This document shows, one piece after another, positions 7,765 through 40,098 of a DNA stretch of 64,000 nt. Both the position numbers and the translations under genes were made by a program. Numbering within the stretch: the first letter of the stretch is position 1; each line of letters opens with the position of its first letter. Below the pieces are notes generated by a model. It was not told the origin of the DNA, made no database searches, and saw only the letters and a program-made list of their open reading frames with translations. Source of the DNA: Syntrophobotulus glycolicus DSM 8271 (GTDB lineage: Bacteria > Bacillota > Desulfitobacteriia > Desulfitobacteriales > Syntrophobotulaceae); contig NC_015172.1 in NCBI RefSeq assembly GCF_000190635.1, positions 1,240,001 to 1,304,000 on the forward strand. The letters run 5' to 3'.

Positions 7765-10317
7765 CTATTCGTTCTCCCGCAGCCGCTGCACCACACTATC
7801 CTTTGAGATACTTTTATACACCTGGATTGGCAGTACGCAGGCTAAAAGCAGCAGTATCGGAAAGCAGATGACAAGAGGTGCAAAGCTGAACTGATAGGTA
7901 TATGCGGCGCTGCCCTGAGTTACAGTATTGACGGCAAAGTAGCTGACCCCATAGCCCGCCGTTACAAAGACAAGCAGAGCCATCGCCATATAGTATATGC
8001 TTTCCAGTATAAGCATCTTTTTGCCTTGTTGGGCGGTCATGCCCACGCTCTGGAGCATGGCAAGTTCCTGCTTGCGAGAAAAAATATTGGTCATGGTGGT
8101 ATTGACGAAATTCAAGATACCGATTAGTAAAATCACAACGCACAGCGTAAAGCCAATGAGCGCAAACTGCTGGTTATCGTTTTTCATCTCGGCAATATAA
8201 TCGGCGCGGGAGCGAAAGTCCACCTTGGGATTATCAGCAAGCAGTAGCCCAATCTCTGTCTGGAGGCGGTCGACAGCAGATTCATCCGCTATGACTGTGG
8301 CCGACATGATATCGGGGTTTGCAAGGCTTTCAAACTCGGAGGACGGAAGATAGACGGAAAAGCCGGGCATTGAGATAAAATGCGCGCCTAAAGAGTTGAG
8401 CGCGCTATAATCCACCTTACCCATAACCTCATAGCTGCGTTTCTCTCCATTCTTATCGTCCAAGGACAATGTGACGGTGTCCCCGACCCGAACCATGCCC
8501 TCGCCGTCAAAGCCGAGCAGTACATAATTCCCGGACAAAAACTTCTCACGGTCAAATGTGCCTTCGACCATGTTTTCCTCCAGCTTATCCAGCCAATAGC
8601 TGTCAAAGCCGTAGACTTGCGCGTTTATGAAATTGCCGTAGGCGCTGAAATCCGTCTTTTCAATGATTTCCTCAACTTCCTGTTCCGTCAGAGAAGGCTT
8701 CTCTGCTAAAATCTTATTGCGCTGGAGATTGACTAAGCCGTCCTTAATATTTCCCTCTATGGGAGCAAAGCCGTTTGCATAGTAGACTTTGGCAACCTCC
8801 TGTACGCCGTCGAGCTCTTTCACATCAGACAGCAAATCCTTATTTAACGTATTGCTTGGCGTATAGGGTCTGGCAAAGCTGAAATAATCCGTGTCGGCAA
8901 TCAGAAAATCGCCGTTGATATGGCCTTGCAGAAACTTATTAACATCAAAGCTGCCCACCAGTGTGTAGACGGCATTAAACAGAATCAGCCCAAGTGACAG
9001 TGACGCGATGACCAGCGATGCTTTTTTTCTACTGCGAAAGATGTTGGACCAGGCCATGCGGGATATTTTCGCCCCGCCGCTGCCGCGTTTTGTCTTTTTT
9101 GCGGAGGCGGCGGCAAGTCCCGTATATCGTACCGCCTCCACGGGACTGACCCTGCCCGCTTTTTTCGCGGGGCCGTGACAGCTTATCAGCACCGTAACCA
9201 GCGCAAGCCCCGCCCCAAGCAGGAATATCCACGGATTTGGGGGCGCCGGCATGTAGTCGATGCTGAGAAAACCGAGCAGAACGGGAATCAGCAGGGTACC
9301 CAGCAGATAACCCAAAAGCAGGCCGACAGGGATACCGACCGCGCAGAGCAGCAACGCCTGAAAGTTGACGACGCGTCCAAGCTGCCGCCCAGTCGCGCCG
9401 ACGGTTTTCAGCAGGCCGTAAAACCTCACGTCGCGCATGACTGAAATGTAAAAGATATTGTAGATGAGAAGATAGCCGCTTACCAGAATAATGGCGATAA
9501 TGAGTGCCATTGCCGCGATGAGACCGCCGTCCGAGCTCGTTGTGTTGTAAGCGTCGTTAAAGAGAACGCCTGCGGCCTCGGCGTCAATTCCGGTATCCCG
9601 CAAGATGGTATCCATATTTTCTTCAAGTTCAGACAGCTTTCCGTCTATATTGGCGGTCAGCTTGGTTACGCCGTAATAACCGGCGCCCAGACGTGTTTGG
9701 GCCGGATTCACACCATTAAGCAGCTTGTCCGCCAGAGTGTCGGAGATATACAAAATTCCGTAGGGCTGGAGGTTCAAGTCACTGTCCCAAAATCCGCAGA
9801 CGGTAAAATCCATGCTGTAAGGCGTTCCGTCCACTTCAAAATCCAGATGTACGACTTGCCCGGGTTCCCTCGGCAGGTTCATTGCGTCCAGAATCCAGCT
9901 TGTCAGGGCAATTTCATTTTCCGCCTCGGGCAGCCGGCCTGTCGTTGGCTTGCTGAAAGTAAACTCGGCAAAATTCTCGTCAGCCGTGTGAATTTCGCCC
10001 TGCACTTGACGGAATACGCCTTCAGTCGTTATGGTAATCAACCTTGACAGGCCGTATTCCTTAATCAGCGGATGTTCGGCCACACGCTGCGCCTCGTCCT
10101 CAGTAAGATATTGAAAATCAACCTCGGTACTGCGTCCGTAGCTGTGTATCAGCATCTGCTGCATACCGTCGGAGAGGCTGATGCCGATGGTGAATACCGC
10201 CGTAATCAGAACGGTGGTAAGCACAATGGCAATCAGCGCAAAGATGTTCCGGCTTTTATTGGCCAGAAAACTTCGCTTGGAGAGATTTCTTATGACCGTT
10301 TGGTTGTTGTTTCTCAT
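7765..10317 (-). CDS. ABC transporter permease, FtsX-type, antimicrobial peptide family
   Basis: An 850-residue integral membrane protein with two FtsX-type modules: a membrane anchor near the N-terminus (NKSRNIFALIAIVLTTVL), a large extracytoplasmic domain, three helices around residues 260-400, then a second anchor, a second extracellular domain and three C-terminal helices (FALIGFTLCVVILLIGILNF onward). The start at 10317 follows GGAAGGGCGGTGA, five bases after the ATPase stop; an ATG 42 bases further upstream is inside the ATPase gene. It forms an exporter or peptide-sensing unit with the ATPase upstream and is probably controlled by the adjacent two-component system. Confidence 0.9.
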   Translation of the reverse strand: MRNNNQTVIRNLSKRSFLANKSRNIFALIAIVLTTVLITAVFTIGISLSDGMQQMLIHSYGRSTEVDFQYLTEDEAQRVAEHPLIKEYGLSRLITITTEGVFRQVQGEIHTADENFAEFTFSKPTTGRLPEAENEIALTSWILDAMNLPREPGQVVHLDFEVDGTPYSMDFTVCGFWDSDLNLQPYGILYISDTLADKLLNGVNPAQTRLGAGYYGVTKLTANIDGKLSELEENMDTILRDTGIDAEAAGVLFNDAYNTTSSDGGLIAAMALIIAIILVSGYLLIYNIFYISVMRDVRFYGLLKTVGATGRQLGRVVNFQALLLCAVGIPVGLLLGYLLGTLLIPVLLGFLSIDYMPAPPNPWIFLLGAGLALVTVLISCHGPAKKAGRVSPVEAVRYTGLAAASAKKTKRGSGGAKISRMAWSNIFRSRKKASLVIASLSLGLILFNAVYTLVGSFDVNKFLQGHINGDFLIADTDYFSFARPYTPSNTLNKDLLSDVKELDGVQEVAKVYYANGFAPIEGNIKDGLVNLQRNKILAEKPSLTEQEVEEIIEKTDFSAYGNFINAQVYGFDSYWLDKLEENMVEGTFDREKFLSGNYVLLGFDGEGMVRVGDTVTLSLDDKNGEKRSYEVMGKVDYSALNSLGAHFISMPGFSVYLPSSEFESLANPDIMSATVIADESAVDRLQTEIGLLLADNPKVDFRSRADYIAEMKNDNQQFALIGFTLCVVILLIGILNFVNTTMTNIFSRKQELAMLQSVGMTAQQGKKMLILESIYYMAMALLVFVTAGYGVSYFAVNTVTQGSAAYTYQFSFAPLVICFPILLLLACVLPIQVYKSISKDSVVQRLRENE

Positions 10318-29139: not shown

Positions 29140-30150
29140 TTTCCGTTAAAATAAAGGCAAGGTTTTGTTTTGCCTGGATTAAAGTGTTTTTTCCGCCAGT
29201 TGCCGCATGGTGAAGGACGTCTTGAACCAAAGGTGTTTTTCGGCCTTGCCTGCAACATTGTTCAGAAGGGTCTTGAATAGTTATTTGTCCGGCCGTTGTC
29301 CTAAGTTTGATTAGGCTAACTTTTTTCGTGAACATGAGAGCAAGGTCTTGGTCTTGCCTGACTAAAGTGTTTTTTCGTCATGCTTATCGGCATGGTGGAG
29401 AACGTCTTGCATGTTTTTTGTCCGGTCATCGTCCTGAGTCTGGTTAAGGGAACTTTTTTGTTAAAATGAGGGCAATGGTTTTTTGCCTGGATTAAGATGT
29501 TTTTTCCGCCAGTTGCCGCATGATGAAGGATGTCTTGAACCAAAGGTGTTTTTCGGCCATGCCTGCAACAGGATTCAGAGCATCTTGAATGGTTATTTGT
29601 TTGGCCGTCGTTCCAGGTTTGATTAGGCTAACTTTTTTTTGTTAAAATAAGGGCAAGGTCTTGTCTTGCCTGACTAAAAGTGTTTTTCCATCATGCTTAT
29701 CGGCAGGATGGAGAACGTCTTGGATTGTTATTTGCCGAGCATCGTCCTGAGTTTGCATGAAGAGAACTTCTTTTTGTTAAATAAGGGCAATGGTTTTGCC
29801 TGAATGAAAAGTGTTTTCGGCCATGCCTGCAACATAGTTCAGAGCGTCTTGAATGGGTTATTTGTTGGTCGTCGTCCCAGGTTTGATTAGACTAACTTTT
29901 TTCGTTAAAATAAGGGCAAGGTCTTGTCTTGCCTGACTAAAGTGTTTTTCCGTCATGCTTATCGGCAGGATGGAGAACGTCTTGGATTGTTATTTGCCGA
30001 ATCAACGTCCTGGGTTTGCATGAAAAACTTCTTTTTGTTAAATGAGGGCAATGGTTTGTTTTGCTTGAATTAAAAGTGTTTTTCCACCATGCTTCTGGCG
30101 TGGTTCAGAAAATCTTGAATTGCTTTGGCCTCGTCGTCGTTTAAAGACTG
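29140..30150 (-). repeat. tandem array of degenerate ~131-134-bp repeats derived from the marR 3' end
   Basis: The anchor AAGTGTTTTT (variants AGGTGTTTTT and AAGATGTTTTTT) recurs at 29182, 29231, 29365, 29494, 29544, 29678, 29809, 29940 and 30074. Spacings are 131-134 bases, apart from one of 129 and two extra 49- and 50-base partial units. Each unit also carries variants of GGCAAGGTCTTG..GCCTGACTAA before the anchor and GTCTTGAATTGTTATTTG after it. The last copy, at 30074, is the real 3' end of the MarR coding sequence (encoding IQDFLNHARSMVEKHF). The other copies are decayed duplicates of that segment and its downstream DNA. Confidence 0.9.
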
Positions 30151-30978: not shown

Positions 30979-31054
30979 GGGGATGTAGCTCAGCTGGGAG
31001 AGCGCTTGCTTCGCATGTAAGAGGTCGAGGGTTCGAGCCCCTTCATCTCCACCA
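30979..31054 (+). tRNA. tRNA-Ala (anticodon CGC)
   Basis: A 76-base cloverleaf including CCA: acceptor GGGGATG/CATCTCC with the G3-U70 pair that identifies alanine tRNAs, D-arm GCTC-AGCTGGGA-GAGC, anticodon stem CTTGC/GTAAG with loop TTCGCAT (anticodon CGC), and T-arm GAGGG-TTCGAGC-CCCTT. It sits immediately upstream of the type III-B CRISPR locus and may be the integration site of that island. Confidence 0.97.
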
Positions 31055-31100
31055 TAGTTTTTTGTCGAAAGAAGTCGACTGTTGTTGCAGTTGGCTTTTT
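31032..31100 (+). repeat. left copy of a degenerate direct repeat (tRNA 3' end plus flank)
   Basis: Includes the tRNA 3' end and the following TTTTGTCGAAAGAAGTCGACT...TTGCAGTTGGCTTTTTT. A related segment recurs at 38491-38570, past the CRISPR effector genes. A shorter match (TCGAAACAAGTCGACT) is also at 38076-38091. Confidence 0.6.
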
Positions 31101-31219
31101 TTATATTTTTGCATATAGAATTGATAATTATCATCACGTGTTGTGCAAAAGTCCTGGTAATCTTTGCCGTTGCGATATATGATATTTACAAGAATTTCCC
31201 TTTGAAAGGAGTGATGCAG

Positions 31220-32152
31220 GTGAATGCTAAAACAAACAGAACTGAACCCACACCGGACTTTGATACCATGAGGGATATTATAAGCAACTATATTCAAACA
31301 GAGGAATCAATTGTTAGTCAATTGCATTTTAGACACAAGCATGGGAGTATCATCGGTGGTTTTCGTGAAGAAATATGGAAACAGCTTTTTGAACAAATTG
31401 TTCCTAAAAAATTTATTATTGAGCAGTCGGTATTCATTATTGATGCTCAGGGACAGGTCTCGAATGAGGTGGATCTTGCCATATTTGACGAAATCTATAC
31501 CCCTTATATATTCCGTAATGGCAGATTGAAGTTTATCCCTATTGAAGCGGTTGCCGCCGTCGTTGAATGCAAAAGTACATCCAGAGGTATTGATGATCTG
31601 AAAAAATGGTGCGATAGCATCGCCAAACTTCAGACATCCCGTGATGCTGTCGCCAGAATGCATGGTTATATCGCCACCAGCAACTTAGAACAACCTTCCA
31701 CCCAAACGGGCACAAGGCCTATGCGAATTTCCTGCCATCTGGCGGGTGACAGTGAAAACATAGATGCCTTATTTGATTTTGTATTACAGGCTAAAGAAAA
31801 TAAGCCGCAAATCGTTATTAAGGTGAATTCTAAAAATAAAACGCTCAAAGATTGGTTTAATGGGCTGAATCATAACGCCCCGGATGTCGAGGAGCGCTAT
31901 AAAAACGTAGGAAAGGGTTTTCAGGACGAGGATGGCGAAAAAACTAAGAAGAATAATTATTCTTTAGATGATTATCGCGTATTTGCAGCGGAAGGGCGGG
32001 AAGTATCCTTGCTATCCTTTAATTTGCAATTTAATCAGCTTTTGATGCTTATCAACAATCCTATGTTGTTTCCGCACAAGGCTTATGCCGCTATGTTTAA
32101 CAGAGTATATAATTCAGAGGATAGCCCGGCATTGGAGGGTGACAATAAATGA
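31220..32152 (+). CDS. DUF6602-like PD-(D/E)XK protein coupled to the type III-B operon
   Basis: A 310-residue protein. GTG at 31220 is preferred because AAAGGAG lies 8 bases before it; an ATG at 31214 is too close. The N-terminal half matches the DUF6602 layout: a helix FREEIWKQLFEQIVPKKFII, then a strand with Asp85 (NEVDLAIFDE), and Glu116-Cys-Lys118 (AVVECKS), a PD-(D/E)XK nuclease-type D...ExK set. The C-terminal half (about 130-310) is unassigned and no CARF or SAVED domain is visible. Its stop overlaps cmr1 by ATGA. It is the first gene after the tRNA and probably an ancillary effector of the CRISPR complex. Confidence 0.72.
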   Translation: MNAKTNRTEPTPDFDTMRDIISNYIQTEESIVSQLHFRHKHGSIIGGFREEIWKQLFEQIVPKKFIIEQSVFIIDAQGQVSNEVDLAIFDEIYTPYIFRNGRLKFIPIEAVAAVVECKSTSRGIDDLKKWCDSIAKLQTSRDAVARMHGYIATSNLEQPSTQTGTRPMRISCHLAGDSENIDALFDFVLQAKENKPQIVIKVNSKNKTLKDWFNGLNHNAPDVEERYKNVGKGFQDEDGEKTKKNNYSLDDYRVFAAEGREVSLLSFNLQFNQLLMLINNPMLFPHKAYAAMFNRVYNSEDSPALEGDNK

Positions 32153-33063
32153 AGAAAAGCATTCTGCATTGCACAGTAATCAGTCCAATGTTCAGCTATG
32201 GAAACCAAAAAGTGGAATTGCGGCCCTCTGAACTAAAAGGGCTTATGCGCTATATATACAGGATTGCCAATCATCAAAGCCGCACTGAATTGTTGTATGA
32301 AGCGGAAGGGAAACGCTTTGGCGATGCTGAAAAATACGCTTCACCTGTTCGCATGCAAATGAAAATGCTGGATGAAAAACAGGTGCGGCAATCTCTCATG
32401 CTGCACAAAGAAGCTCCTGACCGAAATCCGAGAATGTTAAATTTTTCGGCAGGAACTACCTTTGAGATTATCATCAGAACGCTAAGCGGAACAGATATTG
32501 AGGGTATAACACATGAATGCTATAAAGACCATGTGATTCTATCCCTCGTTCTGGGAGGTTTGGGGAAGCGCACCCGCCGGGGCAGAGGCTGTGTGACAAT
32601 TGCAGAACTGAATAAAAATAATCAGCAACTGCTTTTCTGGGTTACTGAACAGCTGAATACGATCAATGAAAAAAATTCTTCCGGTGGCACTCCTCCATAT
32701 AAAAATGAAAAGGGCGAAATTGTTGTGGCAGCCGATCTTACCAAGCTTCAACGCCCGATTATAGAAAAAATTAAACTGGGAAAAGAGATTAAAGATATCC
32801 ATGTGTTCTTGCAATCAGTGGACCAAGCTTCCCATAACATCAAACGATATCCGCCTCAATGTGTTCAAAATAGGAAATACGCAACAGGGTTTGCCTTTGG
32901 TGGACGTTTTGCTTCTTCTGTTATTGTCAGTGTTACCCAAACCAGCGACGGTATCTTTCCGATCTATACTTACGTGAAGGCTATTTATAACGGCGTAGCA
33001 TTGGATAGTGCTTACGAAGAACGAAATGAATTCATAGATCTTGTTGAGGAGGGAGCGCATTGA
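32149..33063 (+). CDS. cmr1: type III-B CRISPR RAMP protein Cmr1
   Basis: A 304-residue Cas7-superfamily protein. RPSELKGLMRYIYRIA near residue 27 is the Cmr1 N-terminal signature, and LGGLGKRTRRGRGCV near residue 140 is the glycine/arginine-rich loop of RAMP folds. Cmr1 caps the 3' end of the Cmr effector and helps capture target RNA. It overlaps the DUF6602-like gene (ATGA) and cas10 (TTGA). Confidence 0.88.
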   Translation: MKKSILHCTVISPMFSYGNQKVELRPSELKGLMRYIYRIANHQSRTELLYEAEGKRFGDAEKYASPVRMQMKMLDEKQVRQSLMLHKEAPDRNPRMLNFSAGTTFEIIIRTLSGTDIEGITHECYKDHVILSLVLGGLGKRTRRGRGCVTIAELNKNNQQLLFWVTEQLNTINEKNSSGGTPPYKNEKGEIVVAADLTKLQRPIIEKIKLGKEIKDIHVFLQSVDQASHNIKRYPPQCVQNRKYATGFAFGGRFASSVIVSVTQTSDGIFPIYTYVKAIYNGVALDSAYEERNEFIDLVEEGAH

Positions 33064-34772
33064 GCACTTCATTGTTTATTTTTACAATTGGACCGGTAAA
33101 GTCATTTATTGAACAATCACGTAAGACGAGAGACTTGTATGCAGCAAGCTACTTGCTGTCCTCCTTAATGTCCGGAGCAATTCAAGAATTAAGCAAACAA
33201 GAGAATGTTGAGATCATTTTTCCAAGCGTGCCAGAAGACAATAACATCCCCAACCGCCTTGTTGCGATTGCAAGCGGATATGGCAAACCAGATCAGGAAC
33301 GGTTGGGAGTCTCTCTTGAACGATATGTCAAAAACGAGTTTATAAATATCTGCAATCGTATATTCAACAATGTAGGAATAACGCCAAACCAATGGGCCAG
33401 AGAGCAACTCGAACGGTATTTAGAGATTTACTGGGGTTTTGAAGAATATGAGCAATATAAAACCGGTTACCTGCAAATGGTAAGGCGCATCAACAATATA
33501 AAAAGGTTGCGCATATTTTCTCAAACCAACGAACCATACGGTCGAAAATGCACGCTCTATCCAGAATCGAATATTGTTTTTGCCAAGAAGGCAAACGGAA
33601 GGTTCCCTTCTTATGTGGCTTCAGAACACGTAGTTGATATCACCAATATCCCAAAATGCGAGTACGCGATAAAACCGACAGAGGGATTGTCGGCGGTTGC
33701 CTTTGTTAAACGAATGCTCAATACTTTAGGCAACGAGAAAGAAAGCGATGCGGGGGTTTTAACCTTATATCAGTCCAATATTTCATCGGTTGCCTATATG
33801 CTTTTAAGAAACAGATTACTGGGCACAGCCTATGAAGCAGACCTAAAACAACTGGAAGATGAAGCATCGGAAACGATCTTTGATCTCCAGAACCACCAAA
33901 GTCTCTCCGAAGAGGAGTATAGCAAGGACAGCATTGCCGCGGCCCAAGCGCTATATGAAAAAATAAATAAGGACAAGATCCTGATAAGCCCCTATTACGC
34001 GCTTGTAAAGTTTGACGGGGATGGCATGGGAAGCTTGTATCAGTCGTATGCGGACAGGATCACCCACAAAGAGCTAAGCAAAAGTATCAGCCGCTTTGCC
34101 ACAAGTGTGCGGGCAATTATCACAAAGTACAATGGCATATGTATTTATGCGGGTGGCGAGGATTTTCTGGGGTTTCTTCCGTTGGACGGTCTGTTTGTCG
34201 CTCTTTTTGAGCTACATAAAGAGTTCCCCAATCAGGTGAAGGCGCCGCTTGGACATCCCCAACCCCTAACATTTTCAGCCGGTATTGCCATCGCTCATAT
34301 TATGCAGCCCCTAAGCGAGGTTATGGCTAAAACCAGCGAATTAGAAGCTTTAGCCAAGGGAATTGACGCTGATAAAGATGCCTTTGCTATCACTTTAATG
34401 AAACGAAGCGGAGAAAATGTAACCATTAAAAATAAATTTGGAGGGAATTGCCAGAATCTGAAAATCCTATATACTACGCTGCTTGATTTGCAGCAAAATC
34501 AGTTTTCCAAAGCATTTATTCAAAATCTTACAGGAACACTCGTCCGTATCCAGAGCATGAAAGATGATAAGAAACACCAAATGGTTCGAGTGCTTATTAA
34601 ACAAGCTTTAAAACAATCCAACTCGACTTTGGACTGTGACAAACAAACGGCAGACTTTTATACGCTATATCAAAAATTCAACTCCAACATTTCACAATTT
34701 ATATCCGTTCTACAGACGGTTAGCTTTTTATCCCGGGAGGTGAGTCCATGTTCTATGCCATTGATGCGGTAG
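33060..34772 (+). CDS. cmr2: Cas10 (Cmr2), HD-less, with GGED palm motif
   Basis: A 570-residue large subunit starting at TTG (GAGGAGGGAGCGCAT upstream). The protein opens directly with FTIGPVKSFIEQSRKTRDLY, the beginning of the first palm region, so the HD nuclease domain common in Cas10 is absent. The second palm has the metal-binding segment VKFDGDGMGSLYQ and YAGGEDFLGF with Gly365-Gly366-Glu367-Asp368 where the standard motif is GGDD. The zinc-finger position reads RKCTLYPESN, lacking the usual second Cys. Whether it can still make cyclic oligoadenylate is open. Confidence 0.9.
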   Translation: MSTSLFIFTIGPVKSFIEQSRKTRDLYAASYLLSSLMSGAIQELSKQENVEIIFPSVPEDNNIPNRLVAIASGYGKPDQERLGVSLERYVKNEFINICNRIFNNVGITPNQWAREQLERYLEIYWGFEEYEQYKTGYLQMVRRINNIKRLRIFSQTNEPYGRKCTLYPESNIVFAKKANGRFPSYVASEHVVDITNIPKCEYAIKPTEGLSAVAFVKRMLNTLGNEKESDAGVLTLYQSNISSVAYMLLRNRLLGTAYEADLKQLEDEASETIFDLQNHQSLSEEEYSKDSIAAAQALYEKINKDKILISPYYALVKFDGDGMGSLYQSYADRITHKELSKSISRFATSVRAIITKYNGICIYAGGEDFLGFLPLDGLFVALFELHKEFPNQVKAPLGHPQPLTFSAGIAIAHIMQPLSEVMAKTSELEALAKGIDADKDAFAITLMKRSGENVTIKNKFGGNCQNLKILYTTLLDLQQNQFSKAFIQNLTGTLVRIQSMKDDKKHQMVRVLIKQALKQSNSTLDCDKQTADFYTLYQKFNSNISQFISVLQTVSFLSREVSPCSMPLMR

Positions 34773-35902
34773 ACACCTTGTTTTTTCGTTCATCATCACC
34801 CTTTGACGCCGGAGTTAACCATGCGCCACACAGCTTCTTGCCCCCTTTACCTTCGGTATATGCAGGCGCATTGCGCTCCGTTGCGTTACCAACAAATGAA
34901 GCAGACCCCTTGAAGAACAGGAAAACACTATCGCGCCAAATGAAAATAGGGTTTAACGGGTTAATGGTGAACAATAACTTTTGTTTTCCAAGACCGCTGG
35001 ACACCATGGTTACCGAAAATAACAATCTGGATCTTTTAAGCTTATCCCCATCGTCTGCCGGCAGCTACCCGTTACCATTTTACCTTTCAAGCAATAGAAA
35101 CAGTTTGCAGAAGGAAATTGAACCCCAGGGTGGAGGCTGCCTATATGAAACAGATTTGCGGGCATATCTGGCGGGAGCAAGCAAAGACCTGATTTGTCAT
35201 CCTCTTGCGGATCATTATCATGAGGAAGAACATATCGGAATACAAATTGATAAAAATACGGGTGCTGCACAGGATAAAAAAATGTATCACATTAAAATGA
35301 CACGACCCGTTGATAAACAAAACAACAAATGCAGTCTTGTCGTTGAAGCGGAGGGCGTTTCTCTTCCGGAACAGGCTGCCCTAAAAATAGGCGGGGAATC
35401 TAAAGTGGCCCATCTTCATAGATTAGATAAAAGCATCTCCCTGGCTCCTGTCGCCGAAGAAGCAAAGGTTTTTAAGCTTTATTTGGCAACTCCCGCTATT
35501 TTTACAAAGGGTTGGCTGCCTTGGTGGATTGATGAAGGAACAAATATAGGGTCTTTTGCCTATAAAAAAAGACGAATCCGGGTAAAGCTTATCTGTGCGG
35601 CTGTCGGCAGATATATTCCTGCCGGCGGTTTTGGGCTTGATCCTGAGAATGGCCAAGCAAAACCACGGGAAATGCGCTACGCGATTCCCGCTGGAAGCGT
35701 GTATTTTTTTCAAATTCTTGAAGGAACCTTTGAAGACGCTAACAAGCTTTTCCACCAGAAATGCCTAAGCGATTATCGTGAAAACAAGGGCTTTGTTTAC
35801 GATAACTGGGATAGAATGCGTTATTGTGACCGTGGATTTGGCTATTGCTTGGTTGGAAGGATCGGAAAAGAACAAGGAGGGGAAGTCATATGTACAAAAT
35901 AA
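34748..35902 (+). CDS. cmr3: type III-B CRISPR protein Cmr3
   Basis: A 384-residue Cas5-like RAMP protein. FYAIDAVDTLFFRSSSPFD and SFLPPLPSVYAGALRS at the N-terminus are characteristic of Cmr3, and a glycine-rich PAGGFGLDPENGQ loop follows near residue 297. It should bind the 5' handle of the crRNA together with Cas10. It overlaps cas10 by 25 bases; CGGGAGGTGAGTCC precedes the ATG. Confidence 0.87.
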   Translation: MFYAIDAVDTLFFRSSSPFDAGVNHAPHSFLPPLPSVYAGALRSVALPTNEADPLKNRKTLSRQMKIGFNGLMVNNNFCFPRPLDTMVTENNNLDLLSLSPSSAGSYPLPFYLSSNRNSLQKEIEPQGGGCLYETDLRAYLAGASKDLICHPLADHYHEEEHIGIQIDKNTGAAQDKKMYHIKMTRPVDKQNNKCSLVVEAEGVSLPEQAALKIGGESKVAHLHRLDKSISLAPVAEEAKVFKLYLATPAIFTKGWLPWWIDEGTNIGSFAYKKRRIRVKLICAAVGRYIPAGGFGLDPENGQAKPREMRYAIPAGSVYFFQILEGTFEDANKLFHQKCLSDYRENKGFVYDNWDRMRYCDRGFGYCLVGRIGKEQGGEVICTK

Positions 35903-36837
35903 CGAAGGCCATGTTTTTAAGTGTTTTAACACCCTTGCACGCCGGTGGAGGAACTGAACTGAGCATGATTGATCAGCCAATTCAGAGGGAAGTACACACG
36001 GGTTTTCCTAAAATAGAGGCCTCAAGCCTGAAAGGCAGTATACGCAGCGCTGCAGAAAATGGTGCCAACCAGGACATATCTGAAGATAGCATAACGCAAA
36101 TCTTTGGCGCTGACGACAAAGACAATATTGTTGCATCGGCTGTTGCGTTTTCAGATGCGCGCTTATTGTTCTTCCCCGTTCGTTCGGCAAAAGGAGTATT
36201 TGCCTTCGTGACCTGTCCCATGGTTTTACAACGTTTTTTTAACGATATGAAGCTTGTAGGAATTGGTGACTGCGGCTGGGACTTGAATCTTGACAAAACT
36301 CCTTGGGTTATAGAAGGATCCAGCTTGCTGTTTAAGGATGTGTCGGGATCTGATACTGTTATGCTGGAAGAATTCTTATATAATGTCTTGGTTGAAAAAG
36401 GCAAAGAGGTTCCCTTTGCCACTTTTATTGATAAACTATTGCCCTGTTTACCGGAAAACGAACTTACCAACGACATGCTAAAAAGCAATGCCATATTGGT
36501 ACCCAATGAGGACTTTGCAGATTTTGTGAAGCTTTCTACCGAGGTTATTACCCGGATTAAAATCAATAATAAATCGGGAATCGTAGAGCCTGGAGCTTTG
36601 TTTAATGAAGAGTATTTGCCTACAGAAAGCATCCTTTACAGCCTGATATTTGTAGCAGATTCCCGTCGGCCGCAAAATGAAAATACGGCGCTTGAGAAAT
36701 CAAGGAAAGAAGCAGCCCAAATTGCCGGAGAGCTGGAAAAGTGTATTCCCTCCATCTTCCAGATAGGCGCCAACATGACATTGGGAAAAGGCTTTGTAGC
36801 TTGCAAGATCGTTTCCGGAGGTGAAGCGCATGCCTAA
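35890..36837 (+). CDS. cmr4: type III-B CRISPR backbone nuclease Cmr4
   Basis: A 315-residue Cas7-type backbone subunit. LTPLHAGGGTELSMIDQPIQ contains Asp28, corresponding to the catalytic Asp in Cmr4 that cuts target RNA every six nucleotides, followed by TGFPKIEASSLKGSIR, the RAMP helix signature, and a C-terminal GANMTLGKGFV glycine loop. The start at 35890 follows ACAAGGAGG. RNase activity is expected to be intact. Confidence 0.9.
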   Translation: MYKITKAMFLSVLTPLHAGGGTELSMIDQPIQREVHTGFPKIEASSLKGSIRSAAENGANQDISEDSITQIFGADDKDNIVASAVAFSDARLLFFPVRSAKGVFAFVTCPMVLQRFFNDMKLVGIGDCGWDLNLDKTPWVIEGSSLLFKDVSGSDTVMLEEFLYNVLVEKGKEVPFATFIDKLLPCLPENELTNDMLKSNAILVPNEDFADFVKLSTEVITRIKINNKSGIVEPGALFNEEYLPTESILYSLIFVADSRRPQNENTALEKSRKEAAQIAGELEKCIPSIFQIGANMTLGKGFVACKIVSGGEAHA

Positions 36838-37219
36838 TGAAATTGAAAACGGCAGGGCGTCTTTTGCCTATGAAAGAGTGTTGGCAGTATCAACGGAGAA
36901 ATCGGAGAAATATGCCAAGGATTATCGCGCTCTGGTTCGCTCCTTTCCTGTGATGATTCAAACCAATGGATTCGGAGCCTCTGTGGCATTTTTATTTTCT
37001 AAGAAAAAAAACAACCAGCATGAAGCTGTCTATAATGACATCTCCAAATGGTTAAAGGAGCAGAAGCTTATTGATAATGAGTTGATGGAGGCTATTACCA
37101 AACAAACCAGAAATGGTTATAGAAGGATGACCAACGAAACAATGGCTCTGTTGATTTGGATGAAACGATTTGCAGAGGGGATGATTGAAGGTGAATCAAG
37201 CGAAAAACAATCATGTTAA
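36830..37219 (+). CDS. cmr5: type III-B CRISPR small subunit Cmr5
   Basis: A 129-residue all-helical protein. YERVLAVSTEKSEKYAKDYR and the MIQTNGFGASVAFLFSK core match Cmr5, which stacks along the Cmr4 filament. The start at 36830 follows CCGGAGGTGAAGCGC and overlaps cmr4 by 8 bases. Confidence 0.87.
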   Translation: MPNEIENGRASFAYERVLAVSTEKSEKYAKDYRALVRSFPVMIQTNGFGASVAFLFSKKKNNQHEAVYNDISKWLKEQKLIDNELMEAITKQTRNGYRRMTNETMALLIWMKRFAEGMIEGESSEKQSC

Positions 37220-38030
37220 ATCTGAACCAACATATAACCTGCCTAATGATACTGCTGAGGCAGTTAAGTTACTAGGCAGAATTGATAACTTGTATTTACT
37301 ATTAAACCGGTTGTCCTGTCACAAATGCACCAAAACCGGAATCTCTATTGAGCCTCATGGCTATCCTAACTCTCTTTGCAGGATAAATGCGCCCTGTCCG
37401 CAGGCCATGGATAAGCGGATGAAACGGCTTGCTGAATCACTGCCGCGAAAAATTGAATTTGAATACAAACCTATTGACAAGCTTATGATTGGGATTGGCC
37501 CGCTTTCTCCATACAGCCATATTTCGCTGATGTCCCTTCATCATGTTTATGGTATCCCCTACATCCCAGGCAGTGCATTAAAGGGAATCATTCGCAACTG
37601 CTGGATACAGGAAAAGTATGATGGAAAGGAGATTATTGCCTTAGAAGATCATATGTTTCAATACTTTTTTGGTGTTCGAGCTAATGAAAATGAGGTTGCA
37701 GCTCAAGGCAAGCTAGTCTTTTTCGATGCTTTTCCTATAGATTCCTACACGATCAGTCTTGATGTACAAACGCCACACTTCAAGACTTATTATGAGAATA
37801 AAGGGGAACGGTATCCAACAGATGATCAGAATCCTGTCCCTCTGTACTTTCCTGCAGTTACAAATACTGCCTTTAGGATTACGATAGGAATAGCTGATCC
37901 TGAAGTATCTAATCAACAGATCGATATGATAAAACGAATGATTTCCACTGCTTTAAGCGATTACGGGGTTGGCGCTAAAACTGCAATTGGTTATGGTATC
38001 GGCGAAGTGAAAGCAATCGGTTCGTGTTAA
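37185..38030 (+). CDS. cmr6: type III-B CRISPR RAMP protein Cmr6
   Basis: A 281-residue Cas7-type protein with the Cmr6 patterns YGIPYIPGSALKGIIRN and DYGVGAKTAIGYG. The start may be TTG 37185 or GTG 37191 after AGAGGGGATGA. The region before residue 100 carries four cysteines. It completes a full Cmr1-6 set; no cas6, cas1 or cas2 follows, so crRNAs must come from an array and processing enzyme elsewhere. Confidence 0.87.
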   Translation: MKVNQAKNNHVKSEPTYNLPNDTAEAVKLLGRIDNLYLLLNRLSCHKCTKTGISIEPHGYPNSLCRINAPCPQAMDKRMKRLAESLPRKIEFEYKPIDKLMIGIGPLSPYSHISLMSLHHVYGIPYIPGSALKGIIRNCWIQEKYDGKEIIALEDHMFQYFFGVRANENEVAAQGKLVFFDAFPIDSYTISLDVQTPHFKTYYENKGERYPTDDQNPVPLYFPAVTNTAFRITIGIADPEVSNQQIDMIKRMISTALSDYGVGAKTAIGYGIGEVKAIGSC

Positions 38031-38490: not shown

Positions 38491-38570
38491 GACCCTCTCA
38501 AGTCCCCTTATCTCTGTCATAATTTTTGTCGAAAAAAGTCGATTACCGTTAATTGCAGTTAGCCTTTTTA
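38491..38570 (+). repeat. right copy of the degenerate tRNA-flank repeat
   Basis: CTCAAGTCCCCTTATCTCTGTCA aligns with the tRNA 3' end, and TAATTTTTGTCGAAAAAAGTCGATT...AATTGCAGTTAGCCTTTTT with the sequence just after the tRNA. Similarity covers about 70 bases with scattered mismatches. It would be the distal end of a 7.4-kb island. Confidence 0.55.
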
Positions 38571-38655
38571 CATCTATTTACATTATTTTAGCTAATTATT
38601 CGTTGGGAATCTTATCCATTCGCTATATAATATATATGGAAAAGAGGTGTTTGAA

Positions 38656-38871
38656 ATGCTTGTAAGCTCAACAGAGATTCAAAATAACTTCGGGAAGTAT
38701 CTAGATTTGGCTTCCAATCAGGAAATAGTCGTCACCCGAAACGGGCTTCCGATTGCCCGCCTTGTTGGGGTGAATGATTCTATATCGTTCCTCTCCGACC
38801 GTTTAGTCGGCCTTGTACCGTCCGATGTGGACGAAGAAACGGTACGGAATGAAAGGCTGACGCGTCAATGA
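38656..38871 (+). CDS. Phd/YefM-type antitoxin
   Basis: A 71-residue antitoxin: SSTEIQNNFGKYLDLASNQE followed by VVTRNGLPIARLVG is the standard Phd fold for DNA binding and dimerisation. The start at 38656 follows AAAAGAGG. The C-terminal tail would bind the toxin. It overlaps the following PIN gene by ATGA, but that toxin is broken, so the antitoxin may now be free of a partner. Confidence 0.85.
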   Translation: MLVSSTEIQNNFGKYLDLASNQEIVVTRNGLPIARLVGVNDSISFLSDRLVGLVPSDVDEETVRNERLTRQ

Positions 38872-39280
38872 AACTGCTGCTCGACACAAATATTGTTGTA
38901 GACATTATTTCACGGCGCGCCGGATACGAAGATTCGCTGAATATTTTGAGATACTGCGAAGTAAAAAGGCCGAGGGCTTTGTTTCAACAGCCACAGTTCT
39001 GGACGTGATGTACATTTTGCGTAAGCACGTCAGTCCGGAAGAGGTGAAAGAAGCGGTTCGGATTTTTTTTGCCATTGTGGATGTGGTGGATGTGAAGAAG
39101 AGCGACATAGTCGACGCCTTCGATAGTGGAATGACAGATTACGAAGATGCGGTGCAGGCGCTGTGTGCCAAGCGAAATAGAGCGGATTATATCATTACAC
39201 GCAACGTCAGTGATTTTAGCAAGTCGTTTGTTCCGGCAATCCTGCCGTGTGATGTTTTAATGCTGCTGAAACAAGACTGA
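38868..39280 (+). pseudogene. PIN-domain (VapC-like) toxin, frameshifted
   Basis: The first frame reads MKLLLDTNIVVDIISRR with the first catalytic Asp, then stops at 39007. A second frame continues from about 38945 with EILRSKKAEGFVSTATVLDV and carries DSGMTDYEDAVQALCA and ADYIITRNVSDF, the remaining acidic residues of the PIN active site. Loss of one base near 38940 explains the break. The ribonuclease is therefore probably inactive unless frameshifting restores it. Confidence 0.85.
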
Positions 39281-39287
39281 CGTATAA

Positions 39288-39312
39288 GGCATCTTTTTGA
39301 CCTAACTTCTCA
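39288..39312 (+). repeat. 25-bp dispersed repeat, copy 1
   Basis: GGCATCTTTTTGACCTAACT plus TCTCA. Related copies are at 40025-40050 and 53120-53145. Confidence 0.55.
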
Positions 39313-39338: not shown

Positions 39339-39370
39339 AAAATCCCTGATCGTTGCGATCAGGGATTTTT
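39339..39370 (+). terminator. rho-independent terminator
   Basis: AAAATCCCTGATC (39339-39351) and GATCAGGGATTTT (39357-39369) are exact complements with a 5-base loop, ending in TTTTT. It closes the antitoxin-toxin pair. Confidence 0.9.
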
Positions 39371-39405: not shown

Positions 39406-39669
39406 TCAATTATTAGGTTTCATGCAACTTCTTTTAATGAACTCGCAGGCATGAGGCGACAACATAAAATCCTCAACTTTTCGCTGTGCCTTGTTTCCGA
39501 TGGCAACAAATGATTCGGTTTTTATAAAATGCTCTATTATGGATACTTCCTCAGCCAAGCATGCTACTTGGGCTTTTGCAATTACACGTTGAAAATTCCT
39601 CCACTCTTTATAGTTCAAATCTTTTTGTAATTGCCTTGCGCTTACATATTTGGCATCATCCATGCACAT
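39406..39669 (-). CDS. short DinD-like protein (probable truncation)
   Basis: An 87-residue protein. YVSARQLQKDLNYKEWRNFQ, VIAKAQVACL and AQRKVEDFMLSPHACEFI match the N-terminal third of DinD-type proteins (usual length about 280 residues, motif GAQRxIEDYxLSRYACYLI). GAGGAGGTGATAAA precedes the start. It ends at SCMKPNN soon after the motif, so the rest of DinD is missing. DinD in E. coli is DNA-damage inducible and inhibits RecA filaments; what this short form does is unknown. Confidence 0.65.
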   Translation of the reverse strand: MCMDDAKYVSARQLQKDLNYKEWRNFQRVIAKAQVACLAEEVSIIEHFIKTESFVAIGNKAQRKVEDFMLSPHACEFIKRSCMKPNN

Positions 39670-39796
39670 TTTATCACCTCCTCTCTAAATCACGTTGTAT
39701 TCTTTCTCATATGTTAAAGCGTGCATAACTTTTTGGTCAATGAATTGCATAATTCATTGAAAAATAAAAAAAGCTATGTTATGCTTATATTGCATA

Positions 39797-39883
39797 AGTA
39801 CACCCCGTGCGGGTGCGTGGATTTGTCATTCAGCACAAACCCTGGCCGATTGTCGCACCCCGAGTAGGTGCGTGGATTGAAAC
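39797..39883 (+). CRISPR. relic of a type I-C-like CRISPR array (two repeats)
   Basis: The 32-base segment at 39852-39883 (GTCGCACCCCGAGTAGGTGC then GTGGATTGAAAC, overlapping at GTGC) has the form of type I-C repeats, which begin GTCGCAC and end GCGTGGATTGAAA. A degenerate copy lies 55 bases upstream (39797-39828, sharing CACCCC and GGTGCGTGGATT), leaving a 23-base spacer instead of the usual 33-36. No further repeats or cas genes of subtype I-C are nearby. Confidence 0.6.
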
Positions 39884-40024
39884 AATGATTTATGTAATTG
39901 TGAATCCCTGAAAAGATAGGCATCTTTTGTATCATTTCAGGGCTTTTCATTTTTATGAGTGGCATCCTACAGATATTGCGCTTCGTTTTTGCAAGGCGGG
40001 GGTATGTTTTCATCCACACCAAGT

Positions 40025-40050
40025 GGCATCTTTTTCTACCTAACTTCTCA
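40025..40050 (+). repeat. 25-bp dispersed repeat, copy 2
   Basis: GGCATCTTTTTCTACCTAAC plus TTCTCA; differs from copy 1 by one substitution and one inserted base. Confidence 0.55.
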
Positions 40051-40068
40051 TAATTTTAGGTCAAAAAA

Positions 40069-40098
40069 GATACCATACGGTCGAAACCGCATGGTATC
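40069..40098. repeat. 12-bp hairpin
   Basis: GATACCATACGG-TCGAAA-CCGCATGGTATC; one A-C mismatch. It follows copy 2 of the dispersed repeat and is not followed by a T-tract. Confidence 0.5.

Follow-up and report, generated by a model that had tools for sequence, protein, structure and literature searches.

A type I-C CRISPR repeat pair in Syntrophobotulus glycolicus probably belongs to a creA-like gene opposite a DinD/Bro-N-like gene

Analysis of the window (the whole 64,000-nt stretch of Syntrophobotulus glycolicus DSM 8271 DNA) suggested that an ectopic pair of type I-C repeats is part of a creA-like gene, encoding a crRNA-like RNA that would direct the type I-C Cascade to repress a divergent gene. 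We put the probability of this reading at roughly 0.7. As judged from its sequence, the RNA is very likely a guide RNA for Cascade, and the divergent gene is probably what it represses; that the product of this gene is a toxin or an abortive-infection protein is a tentative suggestion. The initial annotation had taken the repeats for a CRISPR relic, which is probably wrong, because the sequence following the intact repeat matches the neighbouring promoter-like region in the manner of a guide, next to a TTC PAM. The module reads, from left to right, inverted repeat, minus-strand ORF, TTGACC promoter, target, PAM, worn repeat (R1), spacer, intact repeat (R2), guide, and hairpin. Its parts, and the neighbouring operon, are as follows:

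31082-38030, plus strand: NucC-like nuclease and cmr1-cmr6 (type III-B), a neighbour outside the element; the cas6 and cas1 matches of the genome lie elsewhere
39339-39369, no strand assigned: 14-bp perfect inverted repeat that may be a terminator separating the convergently oriented PIN and DinD-like genes, unlisted by the terminator scanner
39406-39669, minus strand: 87-aa ORF with an N-terminal DinD/Bro-N-like domain, strong AGGAGG Shine-Dalgarno at 39677-39682; the proposed regulated gene
39711-39740, minus strand: promoter-like TTGACC-18-TAACAT of the divergent gene, with its -35-like box inside the target
39726-39758, minus strand: protospacer-like sequence targeted by the guide, with the PAM 5'-TTC-3' at 39761-39759 of the same strand
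39757-39785, plus strand: promoter-like TTGAAA-17-TATGCT with TG before the -10; predicted RNA start approximately 5 nt before R1
39797-39828, plus strand: worn I-C repeat R1, 5-bp hairpin retained, 5' handle gone (TGGATTTGTCA in place of TGGATTGAAAC)
39829-39851, plus strand: 23-nt "spacer" with no supported target
39852-39883, plus strand: intact I-C repeat R2, with a 6-bp hairpin and the 11-nt 5' handle TGGATTGAAAC
39884-39916, plus strand: guide (33 nt tested), seed nt 39884-39894; the target matches positions 1-5, 7-11, and 13-16
39906-39954, plus strand: hairpin CCCTGAAA...TTTCAGGG resembling a terminator, T-rich at its tail; it overlaps the 3' portion of the guide

Pairing between the guide and its target begins at the first base after R2 and is interrupted by mismatches at positions 6 and 12, while the match past position 16 is at chance level. 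The target is located approximately 40-70 nt upstream of R1, and both guide and target lie outside the interval 39797-39883 to which the initial annotation was assigned. Cascade flips every sixth guide base, and TTC is the PAM of type I-C. The target overlaps the -35-like boxes of both the RNA and the divergent gene, with the PAM lying inside the plus-strand TTGAAA-17-TATGCT. A seed of positions 1-5 and 7-11 directed to an adjacent promoter region beside a PAM, as expected of CreA, is thus found here, with promoters that are predicted only. In the accessible text of PMC8501985 and PMC9458426, two published CreA guides have the same seed (1-5 and 7-11) and the same PAM (TTC).

The rarity of this match was evaluated against several backgrounds. 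When 18,104 other sequences from the window were tried as guides on the 469-nt upstream region, two reached the 10-nt seed with TTC and none reached 14/15. In a second background, every position of the window, of the own I-C cas3 locus (L009), and of a relative's cas3 locus (L073) served as a pseudo-guide with a target within 600 nt, leaving out the element, the I-C array, and the cas3-side elements of the own genome and of the relative G051. A target with TTC and a 10/10 seed was found for 30 of 88,076 positions, approximately 1 in 2,900 (window 23/62,059, L009 4/14,558, L073 3/11,459). Fourteen of these 30 also reached 14/15, with 12 located in a direct-repeat block and 2 in an L073 palindrome (9385-9409). 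The block (window 29193-30050), upstream of a MarR-like ORF, is composed of long direct repeats in which several 20-nt stretches recur at approximately 260 and 580 nt, and it is the source of background matches at 29.2-30.0 kb. Handle copies with one mismatch occur at nine places in the genome outside the array and the element; one is upstream of I-C cas3, and the other eight score 5, 6, 5, 7, 6, 6, 5, and 5 of 10, none reaching the seed. The 47 sequences after the array repeats score at most 7/10 against the target region (0/47 reach the seed), and the solitary I-C repeats of the relatives G060 and G055 give seeds of 7 and 8 with any PAM allowed. Since this match emerged after trials with two guides, multiple registers, and as many as eight target regions, its probability of arising by chance is closer to 1 in 1,000 than to the single-test value. 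It is a short, AT-rich match, and one equal match lacking the PAM occurs elsewhere in the window (61671).

R2 has the sequence GTCGCACCCCGAGTAGGTGCGTGGATTGAAAC (window 39852-39883), and R1 begins at 39797. Comparison of 39801-39823 with 39856-39878 revealed 87% identity over 23 nt at a spacing of 55 nt, confirming the full 32-base repeat and the worn copy 55 bases upstream that had been described. The 23-nt spacer (39829-39851) is the result of the R1/R2 register and, as had been remarked, is shorter than normal, the spacers of the own I-C array being 32-35 nt. The I-C type of the repeat is supported by the repeats of relatives in the order and by those of the own 47-repeat array beside the I-C cas genes, 37 of which have GTCGCACCCCGCAGGGGTGCGTGGATTGAAAC. 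Within 3 mismatches, R2 is found at a single place in the whole 3.4-Mb genome (3,406,739 bases). Its 3' end GTGGATTGAAAC has 48 genomic copies, all on one strand, 47 in the true I-C array and one at R2, and the reversed-pattern control for GTGGATTGAAAC gave 0 copies. Across the 64 kb, only R1 and R2 come within 9 substitutions of the I-C consensus when the 4-nt loop is left free. The R1 loop CCCCGTGCGGG is that of repeats in three genomes of the same order (G007, G053, and G062) and is unlike that of the own array. With one intact repeat and a 23-nt spacer, the element falls short of a functional I-C array, which has at least two intact repeats and spacers of approximately 33 nt, and it agrees with the one or two ectopic degenerate repeats outside an array that mark CreA. 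No Rfam family was matched at the element with E values up to 1. Of 73 genomes of the order, 15, counting the own genome, matched a 271-nt query; the matches listed align to the repeat part, and none of them reaches past window 39794-39906.

The complete I-C locus at approximately 886-898 kb (cas3-cas5c-cas8c-cas7-cas4-cas1-cas2), 382 kb from the element, provides a cognate type I Cascade. The earlier proposal that an I-C locus was lost here is therefore unsupported genome-wide, and the site may once have held a second I-C array. The genome also contains an I-B locus at approximately 1383-1395 kb (cas6, cas8b1, cas7, cas5b, cas3, cas4, and cas1) with its own array; the only cas6 and the two cas1 matches of the genome are in the I-B and I-C loci. 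The search for arrays with this repeat and for cas5d/cas6 that had been advised accordingly yielded the 47-repeat I-C array with cas5c, and cas6 in the I-B locus. A table in the available part of the S. glycolicus genome paper gives "CRISPR repeats 2" (PMC3156405).

The 23-nt spacer was also considered as a guide and rejected. Its best TTC seed was 7/10 (I-B cas and I-B leader), which 13-15 of 200 shuffles matched, and none of the TTC-flanked targets in cas, cmr, or leader regions stood clearly above shuffles. A 9/10 seed upstream of I-C cas3 is flanked by ATA instead of TTC and was equalled by 10 of 300 shuffles; it was set aside as chance because the cas3-upstream RNA described below targets this very site. 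The spacer has no second genomic place within 3 mismatches. The suggested comparison with phages did not point to a viral origin: the spacer 20-mer has 0 exact matches and the repeat core 0 matches in viral contigs, no phage record matches, and two plasmid records match in the repeat part only.

Three other explanations were weighed against the creA-like reading. The element could be what is left of a decayed or deleted I-C array, with its two last repeats functionless and the guide match due to chance. The missing handle of R1, the short spacer, the R1 loop of another repeat type, and the functionless-looking solitary I-C repeats in G055 and G060 would all fit such a remnant, but these solitary repeats lack a seed of this kind, TTC with a 10/10 seed beside a repeat contrasts with 30/88,076 background positions, and background positions attain 14/15 only where they lie in repeats or a palindrome, so we consider this explanation unlikely. 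It is improbable that 39884-39899 and 39743-39758 are two protein-binding sites of a duplicated operator with the repeat as a bystander: the target does contain a near-palindrome, CAATGAATT-GCAT-AATTCATTG, but the mismatches fall exactly at 6 and 12 from the repeat boundary, the TTC PAM is present, and the same spacing recurs in two other I-C elements.

A still smaller probability is given to an RNA anti-CRISPR (a Racr-like solitary repeat) from a mobile element, which would titrate the I-C Cas proteins. Such an RNA may look like what is seen here, an isolated I-C repeat outside arrays that has promoter- and terminator-like sequences, with a Phd/PIN pair as well as a phage-type gene nearby, and I-C Racrs are described in the accessible text of PMC10651486. 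The SRUFinder criteria published there admit no partial repeat in the 100-bp flanks and would discard this element, whose second copy (87% over 23 nt) is 55 nt away. Furthermore, the element has two repeats and a specific guide match to a chromosomal target, which a Racr would not need, and neither a matching phage record nor a phage context was seen.

The 87-aa protein of the divergent gene matched NCBIfam PRK11525 (DinD) over residues 5-78 with 76 bits (cut-off 242), Pfam Bro-N at E 0.0048, below the gathering cut-off, PHROG 8036 at 6e-17, and the PADLOC candidate family PDC-S13 at 3e-21. Going by these matches, it is the N-terminal domain of DinD only. KilA-N, like Bro-N, is found at the N terminus of phage antirepressors; Pfam detected no KilA-N in this protein, only the Bro-N match below the gathering score. 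The alignment with 15 of the 18 homologues found has nine invariant columns, and the protein deviates at three nearly invariant positions (V9, P72, and H73); it may be a fragment. Its relatives are present in 17 of 398 genomes (own included). Among the matches listed, many phage and plasmid relatives are annotated as DinD and some as antirepressor or BRO, and no relative was confirmed in the viral contigs. Comparison of the AlphaFold model (pLDDT 82) with the PDB gave no clear match (Foldseek E 0.35 and VIA Z 4.7 at best), and the model weakly resembles predicted viral proteins (best E 0.0025 for an unnamed protein, 0.0067 for an antirepressor-like one, 0.0081 for Rha, and 0.012 for KilAC). 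None of 18 other DinD-like loci shows the guide arrangement or reaches a 10/10 seed with TTC, the best scoring 9 (L087), and the DinD-like module is thus a single case with no second copy among them. A Phd/YefM antitoxin gene followed by a PIN toxin gene occupies window 38647-39280; the PIN halves (38868-39008 and 39005-39280) are in different frames and both match PIN_3, the first weakly.

In the element region, 11 promoter-like sites were found against 8.9 +/- 3.0 in shuffles, a number that alone is not significant. The hairpin at 39906-39954 is absent from the list of the terminator scanner, which permits loops of 3-8 only; the fold z of 39884-39952 is -2.47. Inspection by eye revealed no start codon with a Shine-Dalgarno sequence between 39792 and 39851.

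Two similar arrangements were found beside I-C cas genes. The element upstream of the own I-C cas3 (L009 6222-6374, G000:C1:886222-886374) contains, in this order, a TATAAT, TGTGGATTGAAGC, a guide, and a strong hairpin bearing a T run. This guide, AGGATCAATAATTGGTA, matches L009 6222-6254 on the minus strand with TTC at positions 1-5, 7-11, and 13-17, and its target is in its own promoter region. The terminator-like hairpin has a fold z of -5.0, and for this element the consensus scanner reported no promoter at the TATAAT and no terminator. A WYL-domain regulator gene precedes it. In G051, a genome of the same order whose locus has HMM matches for cas3 and cas5c, an element divergent from I-C cas3 (L073 8801-8960) retains the hairpin and the exact 11-nt handle, with a stem that differs from that of the I-C repeat. 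Its guide has a TTC-flanked 10/10 target in the gap to cas3, and promoter-like sites flank the target on both strands. Scanning 12 I-C loci (own, seven other cas5c loci, and four array loci) for the handle with at most 2 substitutions returned 14 handle-like places, three of which reach 10: the cas3-upstream element, the G051 element, and one in-array artefact. In the same scan, one of the seven other cas5c loci (G051) has a cas3-side element, and the other six, scanned irrespective of where cas3 starts, gave none, including G069, with a 93% identical Cas5c. From their sequence, the cas3-upstream and G051 elements look like CreR RNAs. The lone I-C repeats at L055 9751 (G055) and L056 6579 (G060) look like true scars; the former adjoins a truncated copy (by eye) of the regulator preceding I-C cas3 and the latter a Fic gene.

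The initial annotation had also linked the repeat with the neighbouring type III-B operon. The nuclease leading this operon scores 370 bits against PADLOC NucC and matches Pfam DUF6602, and no CRISPR array was found inside the window that holds it and cmr1-6. Since cas6 and cas1 are present only in the I-B and I-C loci and the window has no array, the III-B locus is an orphan effector module without cas6, array, or adaptation genes. The nuclease-cmr1-6 cassette recurs as a whole in Desulfosporosinus sp. SRJS8 (approximately 72% DNA identity), where the 18.8 kb examined contain no I-C-type repeat; in this one comparison, therefore, the repeat does not travel with cmr. Arrays near cmr loci were found in G031, G042, and G047, and because the cmr-side repeats of G031 and G042 end in ATTGAAAC like the I-C handle, in one chosen orientation, it is possible that an orphan Cmr module borrows I-C crRNAs, independently of the element. 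A tRNA gene (window 30979-31051) immediately precedes the NucC-cmr operon, and no attachment-site duplication of its 3' end was found in the window. A short, partly self-complementary motif around ACCTAACTTCTCATAATTTTAGGTC occurs at window 39294-39312, 40032-40069, and 38517-38538 and at L012 12137-12163; it recurs in the cmr 3' flank and also directly after cmr6 in SRJS8, and is possibly a cassette-end or terminator motif.

Comparison with the known crRNA-like regulators indicated likeness to CreA of the CreTA modules, as presented in the available parts of PMC8501985 and PMC9458426, in the ectopic degenerate repeats, the crRNA-like RNA, the TTC PAM, the seed of 1-5 and 7-11, and the target in an adjacent promoter region; a single-repeat CreA form ending in a terminator is also described there. 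Unlike CreTA in these sources, the element is of type I-C instead of I-B or I-F, is 382 kb from the cas locus instead of within it, has its guide after the second repeat, and faces a gene that appears protein-coding, with no RNA toxin found. Two of its properties count against the creA reading: R1 lacks the handle, a departure from the two-repeat arrangement published for creA, and a long distance separates the module from its cas locus. CreR RNAs, which regulate cas genes, are named for I-B, I-E, and V-A in the accessible text of PMC13131331, and that of the review PMC12737573 calls them widely distributed in type I. The element resembles them in guide design and promoter geometry; against the upstream regions of I-C cas, I-B cas, and cmr, its guide performs no better than shuffles, with a best TTC seed of 6/10 upstream of I-C cas3 in place of the cognate cas promoter match of a CreR. 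We therefore file the element neither as CreTA, because it is outside the cas locus and no RNA toxin was found, nor as CreR, because it has no cas target. In section 10 of the same review, CreP toxins are typically KilA-N proteins repressed by a crRNA-like CreA; the element is similar to such CrePA modules in that the gene its RNA would repress encodes a protein of phage-antirepressor type, and differs in that the candidate effector has a Bro-N/DinD N-terminal domain, not KilA-N.

In the mechanism that we propose for the creA-like gene, the RNA would start near 39792 and comprise the worn repeat, the intact I-C repeat, the guide, and the terminator. Cas5c is the I-C repeat endonuclease, and its cut leaves an 11-nt handle. 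Cutting after the R2 hairpin would release this handle joined to the guide AATGATTTATGTAATT, and the I-C Cascade encoded 382 kb away would then bind 39726-39758 beside the TTC PAM. With pairing limited to 5+5+4 nt in six-nt steps, Cascade may bind and yet leave the chromosome intact. Observed here are the parts, the partial match beside a PAM and its rarity, and the complete I-C system; from them we infer transcription, processing, binding, the choice of promoter repressed, and any toxicity. The bound Cascade would cover the -35-like boxes of the DinD/Bro-N-like gene and of the RNA's own promoter and repress both, and loss of Cascade or its blockage by an anti-CRISPR would switch the divergent gene on, as in CreTA and CrePA modules. 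More speculatively, and somewhat against the odds, this would be a CrePA-like I-C module with a stand-alone DinD/Bro-N effector, acting in trans over 382 kb beside an orphan NucC-Cmr operon, whose anti-CRISPR-triggered arrest would back up the type III abortive layer.

crRNA-like regulators are named for I-B, I-E, I-F, and V-A in the available parts of the cited sources. No I-C CreA, CrePA, or CreR and no Bro-N/DinD effector was found among the papers that full-text searches listed, in which the primary CreR and CrePA papers are represented through citing works; I-C regulators may exist elsewhere, because the review calls CreR widely distributed in type I. Isolated repeats are easily dismissed as array debris, and a comparison in 5+1 steps between the sequence after a repeat and promoters close by, with a PAM required, here distinguishes a likely regulatory RNA from the apparent scars of G055 and G060. 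If the creA-like reading is true, type I-C has crRNA-like regulators, and a gene far from the cas locus is under Cascade control; together with the CreR-like RNA upstream of cas3, one I-C Cascade would serve at least two regulatory RNAs in one genome. DinD/Bro-N domains would then join KilA-N as candidate CRISPR-guarded effectors, and the circuit, of a kind known from other CRISPR types, may tie cell fate to working immunity.
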